This document shows positions 3,777-8,882 of a stretch of 37,222 nucleotides of DNA, one piece after another. Position 1 is the first letter of the stretch. Every line of letters begins with the position of its first letter. The notes under the pieces are model-generated. The model was not told where the DNA came from. It was given only the letters and a program-made list of their open reading frames with translations, and searched no databases. The translations under genes were made by a program, and so were the position numbers. Source of the stretch: Desulfovibrionales bacterium (lineage in GTDB: Bacteria > Desulfobacterota > Desulfovibrionia > Desulfovibrionales > Desulfomicrobiaceae). The stretch covers positions 1 to 37,222 of the forward strand of contig JAAYCS010000217.1 of NCBI GenBank assembly GCA_012729655.1, given 5' to 3'.

Positions 3777-5612
3777 TCAGCACTTCGCATTGGCTGGGAC
3801 TGATCCGAGGGCCCCCAACGCAGCGTGGATGGCCACTGCTTTCCGGAACCCCAGCCCGGGCAAAGCGGCCAGTTCATCCACGGATGCGGCCACCATGGCC
3901 TCCAGACTCCCGAACCGCTCCCAAAGCAGCCGGGCGGTCTTGGGACCGATGCCCGACAGACTGTCCAGCTCGGATTTGAACTGGGTCCCGCGCTTGTGCC
4001 GACGCAGGCGGGAGATGGCGAAGCGGTGGGCCGTGTCCCGCACATGCTGCAGGAAGAGCAGCTCGGGGCTGCCGGCCTTGAGGTGCGCAGGATTCTTGCG
4101 GCCAGGAAGAAACACCGCATCGCCCAGCTCCCCGGCCCGGCGGCTCTCGCCCTTGGCAATGGCGGCCAGAGCGAACAGACCAGCAGCCCCGACCTCGTTC
4201 AGGGCCCGTTCCACGGCCCTGAGCTGCCCCCTGCCCCCGTCGATGAGCAGCAAATCCGGCCAGGGCGGACCTGACTGGACGCGCCGCACTGCGAAACGGG
4301 CCAGGGCCAGATAGTCGTCCGCACTGCCCTCCAGTTCGGGAAAGGCGTAAATGCGGTAGGCCTCCTTGTCCTCCTGTCCGTCGGTGAACGCGACCAGGCC
4401 TGCCCGCATGCCTTCGCCCTGGATGTGGGATACATCCACGCATTCCACGCGACCGATCTCCCTGTCCAGGCCCAGGGCACGGGCCAGCCCCTTGCCGTCG
4501 GCTCCGGCCCGGCGGTGCTGGCGCACGTCGGCCCGGGCGTTGGCAGTGGCGATGTCCACCAATCGGCGCTCCTGTTCTCCCCGGGCCTTGGCCAGGACTG
4601 TTTTGCCTCCACGCAGATCCGACAGGATCTCGCCCACTCCGGGATCCGCCCCGCCCAAAGCCGTGACCAGACGCGCAGGAATGAAGCGCTCAGCGGTGTA
4701 GAACTGCAGGATGAACGCATTGATCACGGTCCGTTCGTCCTCGGCTGTCTGCACTGACGCCCCCGGAAACCAGAAGGTCTGACCGTCGATGATCCGGCCC
4801 TGACGGACGAAAACGACGGCCAGACTGATCCCTGTGTCATGGCTGTGCAGGCCCAGGACGTCCAGATCCCGGCCGTCGGACAGGACCGCAGCCTGGCGCT
4901 CGGTGGTCTCCTGCAGGGACCGGATGCTGTCCCGCAGCCGGGCTGCCCGCTCGAAGTCCAGAGCCTCGGAGGCGGCCAGCATCTCGGTCTCTAAGCCGGC
5001 CACCAGCTCGGCCGACTTGCCGGACAGGAAAAGCTCCACCTGCCTGACCACCTCCAGGTACGCCTCCTGGGATACGGGGAGACAGCACGGCGCCAGACAG
5101 CGGCCGATGTGGTATTGCAGACAGGGCCGGACCCGGTTGGCGAAGACCGTATCCCGGCATTTACGCAAGGGAAAGAGGCGATCGATGACCCGCTTGGTCT
5201 CCCGGGCGGCCAGGGCCGAGGTGAAAGGACCGAAATAGACCGATCCGTCGCGGATGACCCTGCGGGTCAGGCGCAAAGCCGGGAAGGGATGGTTACGGGC
5301 CAGACAAAAGAGAACGTACTGTTTGTCGTCACGCAGAACGATGTTGTATTTGGGCCGGTGCTTCTTGATCAGGCTCGCTTCCAGGAGCAACGCCTCCTTT
5401 TCCGTGGACGTGCACAGGAAGTCGATGCCCTGCACCTTCGGCATCATGGCCCTGACCTTGATCGGCAGGCGGTGGTCAGGCTGGAAATAGGAGGCCACCC
5501 GGCGGCGCAGGTGCTTGGCCTTCCCCACATAAATGATTCTGCCCGCGGCGTTCTTCATCAGATAGACGCCCGGGCAGGTGGGGAAACTGACCAGATCCTC
5601 TCGCAGATTCAT
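3777..5612 (-). CDS. uvrC: excinuclease ABC subunit C
   Basis: The 611-residue product matches UvrC length and order: N-terminal GIY-YIG nuclease (CPGVYLMKNAAGRIIYVGKAKHLRRRV) for the 3' incision, a cysteine-containing linker (CLQYHIGRCLAPCC), the UVR UvrB-binding helix pair (about 200-240, LDFERAARLRDSIRSLQ), the RNase H-like 5' nuclease domain (ECVDVSHIQGEGMRAG, LLLIDGGRGQL) and a C-terminal helix-hairpin-helix pair (LSGIGPKTARLLW, LPGLGFRKAVA). It cuts both sides of a lesion in nucleotide excision repair with UvrB. Its ATG overlaps the pcnB stop by ATGA, so translation is probably coupled. It is the last gene of the nine-gene operon. Confidence 0.98.
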   Translation of the reverse strand: MNLREDLVSFPTCPGVYLMKNAAGRIIYVGKAKHLRRRVASYFQPDHRLPIKVRAMMPKVQGIDFLCTSTEKEALLLEASLIKKHRPKYNIVLRDDKQYVLFCLARNHPFPALRLTRRVIRDGSVYFGPFTSALAARETKRVIDRLFPLRKCRDTVFANRVRPCLQYHIGRCLAPCCLPVSQEAYLEVVRQVELFLSGKSAELVAGLETEMLAASEALDFERAARLRDSIRSLQETTERQAAVLSDGRDLDVLGLHSHDTGISLAVVFVRQGRIIDGQTFWFPGASVQTAEDERTVINAFILQFYTAERFIPARLVTALGGADPGVGEILSDLRGGKTVLAKARGEQERRLVDIATANARADVRQHRRAGADGKGLARALGLDREIGRVECVDVSHIQGEGMRAGLVAFTDGQEDKEAYRIYAFPELEGSADDYLALARFAVRRVQSGPPWPDLLLIDGGRGQLRAVERALNEVGAAGLFALAAIAKGESRRAGELGDAVFLPGRKNPAHLKAGSPELLFLQHVRDTAHRFAISRLRRHKRGTQFKSELDSLSGIGPKTARLLWERFGSLEAMVAASVDELAALPGLGFRKAVAIHAALGALGSVPANAKC

Positions 5613-6877
5613 CTGCGCCGCCGGCGGGAGGGCCGCTTGCGGGGCGGTCTTGGATGTTCGGAACGGAACCCGTCGGATACTGGCCGCTCAGACTCCACTT
5701 CTCTGCGCAGATCCTTCCAGGCTGTGGTGTGGCTTAGGTCGTCGCCGGCCACGCGCAAACCCAGTTCGTACAGGGCCAGAGTCTCGGGAAAACAGTCCTG
5801 GGCCACGAACCCACGCTTGGAAAAACGCTTGCGCTTGTCTGGCTCGAACCGGGTCTGGTTGACCATGATCTGGATCAAACGGGCAGACATCCACTTGGGC
5901 ATACAGATGCGCGTACACAGGGGCGTGAGGAGGTCCGCCAGGAGTTCGGCGAAGACCACCCGCTCGCCCTGGGCCGCGTACCTGTCCGCCACGCGCCGCA
6001 CCGGCGCGAATAAAAGGGCCGCAAAAAGCAGGACCGGTTCGGCCTTGCCCGTGTCCCGGATCCGCTCGTCCAGGTGCGCCAGCCAATCCCACAGCACGGA
6101 GTCCTGACCGTGGTCGTGATCCAGGAATTCGGCCACCTCCGGCAGCATGTCGTGCAGCAGGCCGGTCTTGTACAGCAGGCGGAACGCCTTCTCCCCGCAT
6201 CCGAAGGCGAAGAGCTTCTGCAGCTCCTCGAAGATGCGCGGGGAGGAAGCCTTCATAATTTCTTCGTGGTGGCGCAGGATGGCGTTGTAGGTGACGGGCT
6301 CGATATGGAAGTCGAGCCTGGCGGCAAAACGGATCGCCCGTATCATGCGCACCGGGTCCTCCCGGAAACGGATGTTCGGGTCCCCGATGCTGCGGATGAG
6401 ACGATTGCGGATGTCGCTCAGGCCTCCCACATGGTCGATGATGGTGAACCGTTCAATCTCGTAGAAGAGTCCGTTGATGGTGAAATCCCGGCGCAGGGCG
6501 TCCTCCTCCGGCGTCCCGTAGCAATTGTCACGCAACATATACAGCTCGCCGTCATCGGTCTCCTCTTCCTGCACCGGGCAACGCCGGAAGGTGGCCGTTT
6601 CGATGATGTGGTCGTCAAAACGGATGTGGGCCAGCCGGAACCTGCGACCGATCAGGAAGCAATTCTGGAATATTTTCTTGATCTGGGAGGGAGTGGCATT
6701 GGTGCTGACGTCGAAATCCTTGGGCGTGCGGCCGAGGATGAGATCGCGCACACTTCCTCCCACGAGATAGGCGGTGAATCCTTTGCGCGCCAGGCGGTAC
6801 ATGACCTTCAGTGCGTCAGGATGGATATGCTTGCGGGAGACGGGATGCTCGGAACGCGGGATAATGACGGAAGTCAT
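5609..6877 (-). CDS. pcnB: poly(A) polymerase / CCA-adding-type nucleotidyltransferase (PcnB family)
   Basis: The 422-residue protein has the class II nucleotidyltransferase head: YLVGGSVRDLILGRTPKDFDVST (catalytic aspartates in DFD), ETATFR, RRDFTINGLFYE and the RNA-binding RMIRAIRFAARLDF motif. It ends in a run of arginines and prolines typical of PcnB. The longer body and basic tail favour poly(A) polymerase I, which adds 3' A tails that promote RNA decay, over tRNA CCA addition. Family members are easily confused and some deltaproteobacteria use such proteins for partial CCA addition, so the exact activity is not proven. It overlaps the thioesterase stop and the uvrC start by ATGA at either end. 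Confidence 0.92.
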   Translation of the reverse strand: MTSVIIPRSEHPVSRKHIHPDALKVMYRLARKGFTAYLVGGSVRDLILGRTPKDFDVSTNATPSQIKKIFQNCFLIGRRFRLAHIRFDDHIIETATFRRCPVQEEETDDGELYMLRDNCYGTPEEDALRRDFTINGLFYEIERFTIIDHVGGLSDIRNRLIRSIGDPNIRFREDPVRMIRAIRFAARLDFHIEPVTYNAILRHHEEIMKASSPRIFEELQKLFAFGCGEKAFRLLYKTGLLHDMLPEVAEFLDHDHGQDSVLWDWLAHLDERIRDTGKAEPVLLFAALLFAPVRRVADRYAAQGERVVFAELLADLLTPLCTRICMPKWMSARLIQIMVNQTRFEPDKRKRFSKRGFVAQDCFPETLALYELGLRVAGDDLSHTTAWKDLRREVESERPVSDGFRSEHPRPPRKRPSRRRRR

Positions 6878-7374
6878 GGGCGAAATGTAATCCTTGACGG
6901 TGTTGAGTGTGACCGTTCGGCCAGCCGTTGGGCGCGGCGGGCCAGTGCTTCCTCGTTGCGCCGCCGGTCCTCCTCGGATTCCAGAATCAGCCCCGGAACA
7001 GGTACGGGGCGATGACGGCGGTCAAGGGCCACAAAGGTCAGATAGGCCGAATTGGTGTGCCTGATGGCCCCGGTGAACAGGTTTTCAGCCTCCACCCGCA
7101 CCCCCACCTCCAGTGACGTCGTGCCGACCATGTTCACGCTGGCGAAAAACGTGACCAGTTCTCCGATATGCACCGGCTCGTGGAAAATGGTCCGGTCTAT
7201 GGAAAGGGTGACCACGTTCCCTCGCACATGGCGCATGGCCGCTACGGCGGCCACTGTATCGATCTGATGCAGGATGAACCCGCCGTGCACAATGCCGGCT
7301 GGATTGGCATTCTGCGGCTGCACGGAACAGGAGATGGTCGCCCGGCTGGCGGACACGGGTTTGGATCTATTCAT
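6874..7374 (-). CDS. acyl-CoA thioesterase, hotdog fold (YciA-like)
   Basis: The 166-residue protein shows a single hotdog domain. PAGIVHGGFILHQIDTVAAVAA carries the substrate-binding HGG motif and the active-site aspartate of the YciA/ACOT group, followed by VVTLSIDRTIFHEPVHIGELV and the strand LEVGVRVEAENLFTG. Members hydrolyse acyl-CoA to fatty acid and CoA. The C-terminal 45 residues are charged and rich in arginine and glutamate. The start at 7374 overlaps the stop of the dual-CXXC gene by ATGA, and its own stop overlaps pcnB. Chain-length preference cannot be read from sequence. Confidence 0.9.
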   Translation of the reverse strand: MNRSKPVSASRATISCSVQPQNANPAGIVHGGFILHQIDTVAAVAAMRHVRGNVVTLSIDRTIFHEPVHIGELVTFFASVNMVGTTSLEVGVRVEAENLFTGAIRHTNSAYLTFVALDRRHRPVPVPGLILESEEDRRRNEEALARRAQRLAERSHSTPSRITFRP

Positions 7375-7571
7375 ACGCGATCACAGGGAATGTTGGCCAG
7401 ATACTCCTCCATCAGGTCGTCGAGGGTCGTGCCGAATTCCTGGAGTCCAAAATGCGCGCCACAGGACCTGCAGCGCAGCGACACGGACCGTCAGGTCCGC
7501 CTGACCTGCAACAGGCCCCTGCATGTGGTGCAGCGGAGGTTTGTGCGAAAATCGCGGTGTTCGAAGGTCAT
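7371..7571 (-). CDS. dual-CXXC small protein, probable selenoprotein (in-frame TGA at codon 27)
   Basis: Read through the TGA at 7493-7491 as selenocysteine, this gene gives 66 residues: an N-terminal part ending CTTC-RGLLQVRRT, then Sec27, then RSVSLRCRSCGAHFG and an acidic LDDLMEEYLANIP tail. There are two CXXC pairs, CTTC and CRSC, as in zinc ribbons or thiol redox proteins. Three observations favour readthrough: the ATG overlaps the HDOD stop as ATGA, the final TGA overlaps the thioesterase ATG as ATGA, and a SECIS-like hairpin follows the internal TGA. Stopping at codon 27 would leave one CXXC and an unusual 117-base gap inside a gapless operon. I recall a family of dual-CXXC small (seleno)proteins in this lineage. 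Its biochemical role is unknown; thiol/selenol redox or metal binding is inferred. A decayed gene is the alternative. Confidence 0.85.
7455..7477 (-). promoter_or_regulatory. SECIS-like hairpin downstream of in-frame TGA
   Basis: On the minus-strand transcript, nine consecutive pairs (three of them G-U) form UGCGCUGCA / UGUGGCGCG around a five-base GGUCC loop. The loop begins 22 bases after the TGA. Bacterial SECIS elements lie inside the coding region just after UGA and display a short G/U-bearing apical loop to SelB; the fdhF element of E. coli has a comparable GGUC apex. The stem encodes the second CXXC and the loop lies over the RS between its cysteines. Confidence 0.75.
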
Positions 7572-8416
7572 GAAAACGATGCCTCCACATGCTGGACGCT
7601 CTGCCGCACATCCGGGATGAGAGTGCTGAAATCCGGTTGCCCATCCGGCAGTTCCGCCCCCTCCACCCAGAATCCGTCAGGTTGAACGGGATGGAACGCG
7701 TACTCGGTCATGCTGATGGCGTGCCTGGACAGGCGCAACATGCCGTGCAGGCGCGGATGACTGCCGCGGAACTCCCCAGTGGGCTCTTTATAGCCTGCCA
7801 CGATTTCCGAGAAGGATCTGGGAAAATTCCAGACCTCGAGCACTGCGCGGCCACAGGAAAAATGGTCATGGGGATGAAACCACCTTTGCTCCTGGTCAAA
7901 AAACACTGGCAGTGGCAGATCCTCGTGCCGGGAAAAAAAGTCAAGGAATCGATGGGGAAAATTGGCCAGCAGCACCAAGTACCCGATGTTGTGCAAAAGG
8001 CCCAGACATTCCGCAAACCTTGCCTCCTCCTGGTCGAGGGCAAAGGACTCTGATGCCGCGGCAGTGAGTTTGTGCATAGACACGTTGGTCGCCAGGCTCT
8101 GCAGCCAGATCCGGCGCAGGATGGTGCTGATGGGCTGCGATTCGTGATGGAACGCCCCACGCAGCACGACCTGGAACACGATGCGCCTGACTTCCCGCTG
8201 CCCCAGCCGGAGCAGGGAGGCCAGGATGTCGGTGGATTTGTTCAGTCCGGTATAGGCCGGGGAATTGGCACAGCCAACGATATTGCCGAATATGGCTGGG
8301 TCGAGCTCAGCCTGGACCGCGATCTGCTTCACCGTGGCCCCGGGGGTGTTCAGCAGGGCTATGAGACCCAGACCCACGGGGCTCATGCCAGGAAGATCGT
8401 AACACAGTGAATCCAT
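7568..8416 (-). CDS. HDOD-domain protein
   Basis: The 282-residue protein consists of one HDOD domain, a catalytically degenerate relative of HD phosphodiesterases. Visible features are LGLIALLNTPGATVKQIAVQAELDP, then KILxxxNSPAYTG-like CANSPAYTGLNKSTDI, GLLHNIGYLVLLANFP (HN replacing the catalytic HD) and HDHFSCGRAVLEVWNFP. HDOD proteins act as regulatory or scaffold modules in signal transduction, not as known hydrolases. The start at 8416 has GAGG about ten bases upstream, seven bases after the RuvC-like stop. Its stop overlaps the selenoprotein gene start, so the two are probably translated together. Confidence 0.85.
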   Translation of the reverse strand: MDSLCYDLPGMSPVGLGLIALLNTPGATVKQIAVQAELDPAIFGNIVGCANSPAYTGLNKSTDILASLLRLGQREVRRIVFQVVLRGAFHHESQPISTILRRIWLQSLATNVSMHKLTAAASESFALDQEEARFAECLGLLHNIGYLVLLANFPHRFLDFFSRHEDLPLPVFFDQEQRWFHPHDHFSCGRAVLEVWNFPRSFSEIVAGYKEPTGEFRGSHPRLHGMLRLSRHAISMTEYAFHPVQPDGFWVEGAELPDGQPDFSTLIPDVRQSVQHVEASFS

Positions 8417-8423
8417 ATGGTTC

Positions 8424-8882
8424 CTACCTCAGATCGGGCATGATCCGCCATCCGAGCCGCACTGCTGCCCACAGGCCGATGAGTGCTGCCTCGGCGGCAT
8501 CATGGCCCGGCGTGGTCGGCGAGGACCACCCCTCCCTGCGCAAAATACTGTTGACCAAGGCGCAAGCGGCCGCCTTGGCCTTCTGCCCGCTGACCATCTG
8601 CCGGGGCAGAATGAAGTCTGATCGCCAGTCCTGGGCCTGAATGGCAAGACACGGAACTCCGCGTTTCTGAGCCGCGTGCTCCCAGATCCCCGCGGTCTGC
8701 CCTCCGCCTTCGACCACGATGTACTCCAGCTCCGGCAACTCAAAAAGAACCCGGGCCGCAGCTTTTTTCAATCGCGTGGTGGTGCCCAGATTGTGCGAAC
8801 GGCACCACATCAACCGCCCATGGCGGGAATAGAGTGCCAGTCCAGTGCGCAGTCCGGCATCCACGGCCAGGAGGGCGGACAT
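8424..8882 (-). CDS. RuvC/RNase H-fold nuclease-like protein
   Basis: The 152-residue protein has the order of acidic residues of RuvC-type RNase H-fold enzymes: LLAVDAGLRTGLALY at the N-terminus (Asp8), YIVVEGGG in the third strand (Glu about 58), and a C-terminal helix TPGHDAAEAALIGLWA with the expected His-Asp. RuvC itself is somewhat longer and has an extended arginine-rich DNA-binding surface that is not clear here. It may be a Holliday-junction resolvase relative or an inactive RNase H-fold protein. It lies between murI and the HDOD gene and shares one base with the murI stop (TGATG). Confidence 0.65.
   Translation of the reverse strand: MSALLAVDAGLRTGLALYSRHGRLMWCRSHNLGTTTRLKKAAARVLFELPELEYIVVEGGGQTAGIWEHAAQKRGVPCLAIQAQDWRSDFILPRQMVSGQKAKAAACALVNSILRREGWSSPTTPGHDAAEAALIGLWAAVRLGWRIMPDLR

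Follow-up and report, generated by a model that had tools for sequence, protein, structure and literature searches.

The small gene found on the minus strand of the window, by which we mean the whole 37,222-nucleotide stretch of DNA analysed here, very likely codes for a genuine selenoprotein belonging to the NF041197 family, and for the selenoprotein part of this reading taken by itself we see almost no room for doubt. The window very probably comes from the genus Desulfomicrobium. The family, its Sec residue, and its motif are already in print, and the window gene is one more member: in the accessible portion of a 2026 review (PMC13188914), NF041197 is listed as a predicted selenoprotein family with the Sec motif RxU. 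As far as the retrieved portions of the sources go, literature searches for the family name, the model number, and the old label returned only that review and a paper whose abstract concerns human C1orf123. A class-wide count, a hairpin lying inside the second CXXC, and a leftover hairpin in a Cys copy were not found in searches by family name and selenoprotein terms, which were not aimed at each of these points, and the original paper on OS_HP3, the label of the RxU entry, may describe a SECIS.

Locus and reading frame

Translated from 7571 to 7371 on the minus strand, the gene reads MTFEHRDFRTNLRCTTCRGLLQVRRTURSVSLRCRSCGAHFGLQEFGTTLDDLMEEYLANIPCDRV, followed by a terminal TGA as codon 67, with Sec27 placed between the two CXXC motifs and inside neither (Table 1). 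The first-pass annotation, made from the sequence alone, had described a frame that keeps ATGA overlaps with both neighbors and holds a TGA at codon 27, and both features were recovered: at its 5' end the small gene shares bases with the HDOD stop, at its 3' end with the thioesterase start, and the TGA falls at 7493-7491 (minus strand), in frame of the 66-residue reading. The next two downstream junctions (6874/6877 and 5609/5612) are ATGA overlaps as well. As had also been proposed, reading the codon as Sec gains a second CXXC (C34-RS-C37) 3' of the TGA and a coherent C-terminus, the sequence after the TGA being conserved as protein across related genomes. Nucleotide differences 3' of the TGA lie mostly at the third codon position (857/556/1660 for positions 1/2/3, counted over 39 codons and all pairs of 15 copies, 14 from the same genus plus L071, whose genus is not established). 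This downstream conservation and the third-position bias argue that the in-frame TGA reading is more than chance.

Standard calling with table 11 gives the 26-residue stub that had been foreseen, and no ORF in this frame appears among the listed ORFs of 60 aa or more; any gene caller ignorant of Sec would truncate the gene in this way. The plus-strand reading of the same stretch, a different and unrelated product, was rejected. Directly upstream of the HDOD gene, the window carries at 8424-8882 (minus strand) a 152-residue ORF without a hit in NCBIfam or Pfam at E 1, whose sequence we take to be reminiscent of RuvC/RNase H-like proteins.

Table 1. Coordinates in the window of the predicted selenoprotein gene, its elements, and the genes of the same run
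Feature	Position	Strand	Basis
uvrC, same run	3777..5612	-	ORF and family scan
Poly(A) polymerase family gene, same run	5609..6877	-	ORF and family scan
4HBT thioesterase gene, downstream neighbor	6874..7374	-	ATGA overlap; Pfam scan
Gene of the predicted dual-CXXC small selenoprotein (66 aa; Sec codon 27; terminal TGA)	7371..7571	-	Translation; NF041197 match of 77.5 bits (cut-off 40)
SECIS-like hairpin of 10 bp (simple pairing, G-U counted) with GGUC at 7465-7468	7455..7477	-	Comparison of Sec and Cys copies
Second CXXC, C34-R-S-C37	7461..7472	-	Codons inside the SECIS-like hairpin; cysteines invariant in alignment A1
In-frame TGA, codon 27 (predicted Sec), motif R-T-U-R	7491..7493	-	Translation; column Cys or TGA in 72/72 distinct homologous copies
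First CXXC, C14-T-T-C17	7521..7532	-	Cysteines invariant in alignment A1
HDOD-domain gene, upstream neighbor	7568..8416	-	ATGA overlap; Pfam scan

Family match and the Sec/Cys column

The dual-CXXC small (seleno)protein that the first-pass annotation had named proved to be a real family, NF041197, which bears the name dual CXXC motif small (seleno)protein; in the NCBIfam scan, with C substituted for U, the match covers profile positions 1-53 of 53. A comparison of homologues, looking for Cys or U at column 27, had been suggested, and it gave a uniform answer: the 72 distinct copies hold TGA (21 copies), TGC (41), or TGT (10) and no other codon. Each of these copies scores at least 50 bits with our own profile, and they stem from the class loci with the best scores, those of the window's own family, single loci retrieved for each of many genera, and L071, the only distinct addition among three loci found in a contig search; L058 and L105 (17.8 bits) were dropped, and the other loci of the second group described below gave no match to this profile. 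Fourteen of the 21 Sec copies come from a single genus, that of the window. In 40 further Sec loci TGA occupies the column throughout, at the same index in 39 and one residue further along in L154; these loci were chosen for a reported TGA and are uninformative on the frequency of Sec.

The residue two before Sec/Cys is R in 70/72 copies and H in the other 2/72, R25 of R25-T26-U27 being that of the window protein, and among the 40 further copies it is R in 32 and otherwise K, Q, I, Y, or V, so that RxU is not universal. In the alignment of 61 homologues (A1), C14, C17, residue 27, C34, C37, and R65 are invariant. Except for R65, these positions show no exception among all 112 copies, of which 110 end in [DN]R, the exceptions at R65 being L149 (H) and L158 (K), both absent from A1. 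Sec and Cys have replaced each other repeatedly, the best tree needing 7 changes, of which the well-supported branches force only 2, and these swaps offer a natural experiment on what Sec contributes to a small zinc-ribbon-like protein.

These data leave little to the reading of the TGA as a true stop, which would yield a 26-residue peptide or a decaying gene with the remainder untranslated: this organism uses TGA as a normal stop codon, also at the end of this very gene, but 51 of the 72 distinct copies read through the position with Cys, the protein sequence downstream is conserved, the ATGA junction is kept in the window, and TGA stands at the column in many genera, which together make this reading highly improbable. 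A sequencing or assembly error for TGC or TGT, despite an assembly fragmented into 226 contigs and a Cys at the column in the congeneric genome G126, is very unlikely and the least probable reading of all, since 14 of the 15 congeneric genomes with the gene (the window's own included) hold TGA at the codon, among them the single-contig genomes G138, G170, and G181.

Distribution

Of 297 genomes sampled from the class, 253 gave a family match (250 over the cut-off), as did 21 of 22 genomes of the Desulfomicrobiaceae, the window's own family within the order Desulfovibrionales (20 over the cut-off), whereas sampling at the level of the phylum gave a match in 112 of 395 genomes (88 over the cut-off) and 14 named control genomes gave none. 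Some of the matches under the cut-off are of a second, GxU type, and a few genomes, e.g., G260, carry the GxU type only. In the congeneric genome G166 (2.3 Mb, 99% complete) the gene was not found, and selB and selD are present.

Selenocysteine machinery

The presence of the sel genes, which the first-pass annotation had proposed to search for, was established for three of the four: selA (628.1 bits), selB (367 bits), and selC (83.4 bits) are all over their cut-offs in the genome, but selD reaches only 36.8 bits, under its cut-off, in an assembly that is 88.6% complete. Across the 16 genomes of the genus, the window's own among them, selD is over the cut-off in 13, each time with one in-frame TGA, and not over it in G000, G126, and G215. 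G126 (L041, L101) is also the sole congeneric genome whose copy has Cys, and its selB is over the cut-off. Experimental work on the Sec system exists for Desulfomicrobium baculatum, an organism described as non-pathogenic, according to the accessible portion of the report (PMC3035215).

We propose that the ribosome would decode UGA codon 27 as selenocysteine by means of SelA, SelB, tRNA-Sec, and SelD, that this read-through would be directed by a hairpin located just 3' of the codon and overlaid on the codons of the second CXXC, and that the second UGA, codon 67, would then terminate translation.

SECIS-like hairpin

The window hairpin is located 14 to 36 nt after the TGA and, taken alone, is not unusually stable (z -0.82; 38 of 200 shuffles fold equally well). 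In the comparison of Sec and Cys copies, the mean length of the longest stem 3' of the codon is 8.1 bp for the 21 Sec and 4.8 bp for the 51 Cys copies, and the 40 further Sec copies, with a mean of 7.1 bp, also exceed the Cys copies (p 2e-08, relatedness ignored). Moreover, over 59 Sec segments the share of paired cells at nine stem positions is 81% versus 73% after shuffling, with 0 of 2000 shuffles as high, whereas 50 Cys segments give 56% versus 57%. Upon exclusion of the window's genus, the remaining 47 Sec segments still give 78% versus 70%, again with 0 of 2000 as high. The 59 segments comprise 19 distinct and 40 further ones, and the shuffling was applied to the 3' halves with kinship uncorrected. 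When hairpins of at least 4 bp with an early loop G are counted, 43 of 50 Cys and 59 of 59 Sec segments have one, and at a length of at least 7 bp the same class is found in 12 of 50 Cys versus 47 of 59 Sec segments; the Sec copy L055 has a stem of only 4 bp. Fold z-scores of the whole segment part Sec from Cys weakly (mean -1.04 versus -0.49, p 0.02).

An [AG]GUC apex at a single fixed place is shared by 19 of the 21 Sec copies versus 2 of 51 Cys copies, and among the 40 further Sec copies it is present in 12, of which 7 have it at that place. Since the apex drops from 19/21 to 12/40, we consider it mostly a feature of the window's order, while the hairpin as such is, as judged by these sequence comparisons, general among Sec copies. 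Despite this limited reach of [AG]GUC, our confidence in the selenoprotein reading is unchanged, because the Sec/Cys column and the sel genes are unaffected and stems are longer outside the genus too.

The hairpin spans the codons of the second CXXC, which reads C[RKG]SC in 19 of the 21 Sec copies (those of the order) and in 7 of the 40 further ones; CPxC takes this place in 32 of 51 Cys copies versus 0 of 21 and 2 of 40 Sec copies. In one Cys copy, L083 (G100, minus strand), GGGUC and CGSC are kept as in its Sec relatives L084 and L106 and the hairpin letters are nearly theirs, probably as the leftover SECIS of a Sec-to-Cys change in the recent past.

A second group of predicted small selenoproteins

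A further set of small proteins (L174-L183, L185, L186, L188-L190, L192, L193, L157:9048-9254, and L057-L060) has G-x-U between two CXXC motifs, with Sec at the column except in L181, which has Cys, and often shares a genome with the RxU type; in L157 (G520 contig C5) the two types are encoded on one strand, some 4 kb from each other. The group differs from the window type in that G-x-U is mostly followed by A and the C-terminal DR is missing (21 aligned, A2). It falls on one side of the tree with an SH-aLRT of 81, which is not strong support, and 4 of 7 scanned members are over the NF041197 cut-off. We had considered it as an undescribed selenoprotein family and dropped this idea, the review (PMC13188914) already listing, in the portion available, a hypothetical protein DW with the motif GxU under the same model; the accessible part of the deep-Sep paper (PMC12013277) is where DW originates. 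DW is of the same size and has two CXXC motifs with Sec between them, and the presumed link between our group and DW is drawn from the shared model and motif. Three loci fetched with this group, L184, L187, and L191, are of an R-x-U-S type with a different first CXXC (C-G or R-C-G start) and a C-terminus CDR[LVI]; their NF041197 match is weak or just over the cut-off (41.5 bits for L187), and they were left out of A2 and grouped with the second group in the tree.

Structure, neighbors, and possible function

The AlphaFold2 model built from 61 sequences is of modest confidence (pLDDT 66.9, pTM 0.45), with strands at 9-13, 20-25, 30-34, and 40-42, short helices after 43, and residue 27 in the turn that joins the second strand to the third. 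A Foldseek search against the PDB gave nothing significant, its best hit being the small zinc-finger protein ZifS at E 0.33. Because of the cysteine pairs we propose a structural zinc: C14, C17, C34, and C37 would bind one zinc as a zinc ribbon, and Sec, at the beta-hairpin turn between the pairs and flanked by R25 and R28, would be the reactive selenol.

We tentatively favor a role in redox or electrophile chemistry, i.e., thiol-disulfide exchange or the reduction of peroxides or electrophiles, with Cys doing the same job elsewhere. A reactive selenol or thiol is argued by the strict Sec/Cys column, which mostly stands beside basic residues. The neighbors do not point to a partner. The survey covered 71 loci after removal of near-duplicates, from which 51 upstream and 60 downstream same-strand ORFs were collected, 36 and 40 of them being Pfam scanned with near-duplicates and short ORFs excluded. 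The commonest were an acyl transferase domain (6 of 36 upstream; FabD type by our interpretation) and tRNA pseudouridine synthase (5 of 40 downstream), the rest being mixed; the neighbors, a mixture of genes that differs between lineages, were rejected as pointers to a partner. Gene calls by greedy longest ORF, which select wrong-strand ORFs in GC-rich DNA, were set aside. Since these neighbors are tightly joined yet depend on the lineage, the gene seems to occupy various housekeeping runs and not one pathway.

A selenoprotein without redox turnover, in which Sec and the cysteines serve solely as ligands or carriers of a soft metal or a chalcogen (zinc, mercury, persulfide, or selenide), would account for five invariant thiol/selenol positions in about 60 residues and for a weak resemblance to HypA and LysW. 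We regard it as unlikely, though still a serious competitor, given that the model, at its modest confidence, places Sec at a hairpin turn and that no metal-transport or chalcogen family is prominent among the neighbor families listed (25 of 37 and 25 of 42).

Somewhat less probable again is a catalytic or sensing Sec zinc ribbon, in which a rigid arm kept across this class of sulfate reducers would hold the selenol beside arginines at the hairpin tip, with the SECIS inside the zinc knuckle. With the SECIS written into the knuckle, gain or loss of Sec would also rewrite the knuckle; a proline follows the first Cys of the second CXXC in 32 of 51 Cys copies and in 2 of 61 Sec copies.

Finally, the protein could be a zinc ribbon that binds nucleic acid, polymerase, or ribosome and senses oxidation through the Sec at the hairpin tip. 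The R-x-U-R turn is basic in the window protein, weak zinc-ribbon matches include RNA polymerase and ribosomal proteins, and RNA genes occur among the neighbors, with the poly(A) polymerase family in 3 of 40 beside the 5 of 40 for tRNA pseudouridine synthase; the polymerase and ribosomal matches, however, are at E 0.0035 or worse and the RNA-gene neighbors are a minority, and we judge this reading to be rather improbable.

Comparison with known systems

Set against the published RxU entry of NF041197 (hypothetical protein OS_HP3), the window protein shares a score over the cut-off, two CXXC motifs, RxU, the Sec/Cys column, and the C-terminal CDRV, and no difference that would exclude it was found. 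Among solved structures, the best relative by profile is PDB 2jrp (E 3e-05), one of two YfgJ entries with 2jne (E 0.00048); 2jrp is presumably a double zinc ribbon. No Pfam zinc ribbon was over its cut-off for the window protein, Zn_ribbon_6 reaching E 0.0012 and 19.2 bits (cut-off 25). We take both YfgJ and Zn_ribbon_6 to lack Sec and to have two zinc sites. The zinc ribbon of TFIIS holds acidic residues at its tip, whereas the rigid-arm reading proposed above would place a selenol beside arginines there. The closest parallel for the hairpin is the SECIS of Escherichia coli fdhF, where UGCAGGUC likewise follows closely 3' of the UGA; counted on the 47-base fdhF stretch used for comparison, GGUC is 4 nt further from the UGA in the window gene. 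This stretch, which holds UGCAGGUC, matches 5368 of 5426 E. coli genomes, with fdhF annotated in the 2 matches listed.
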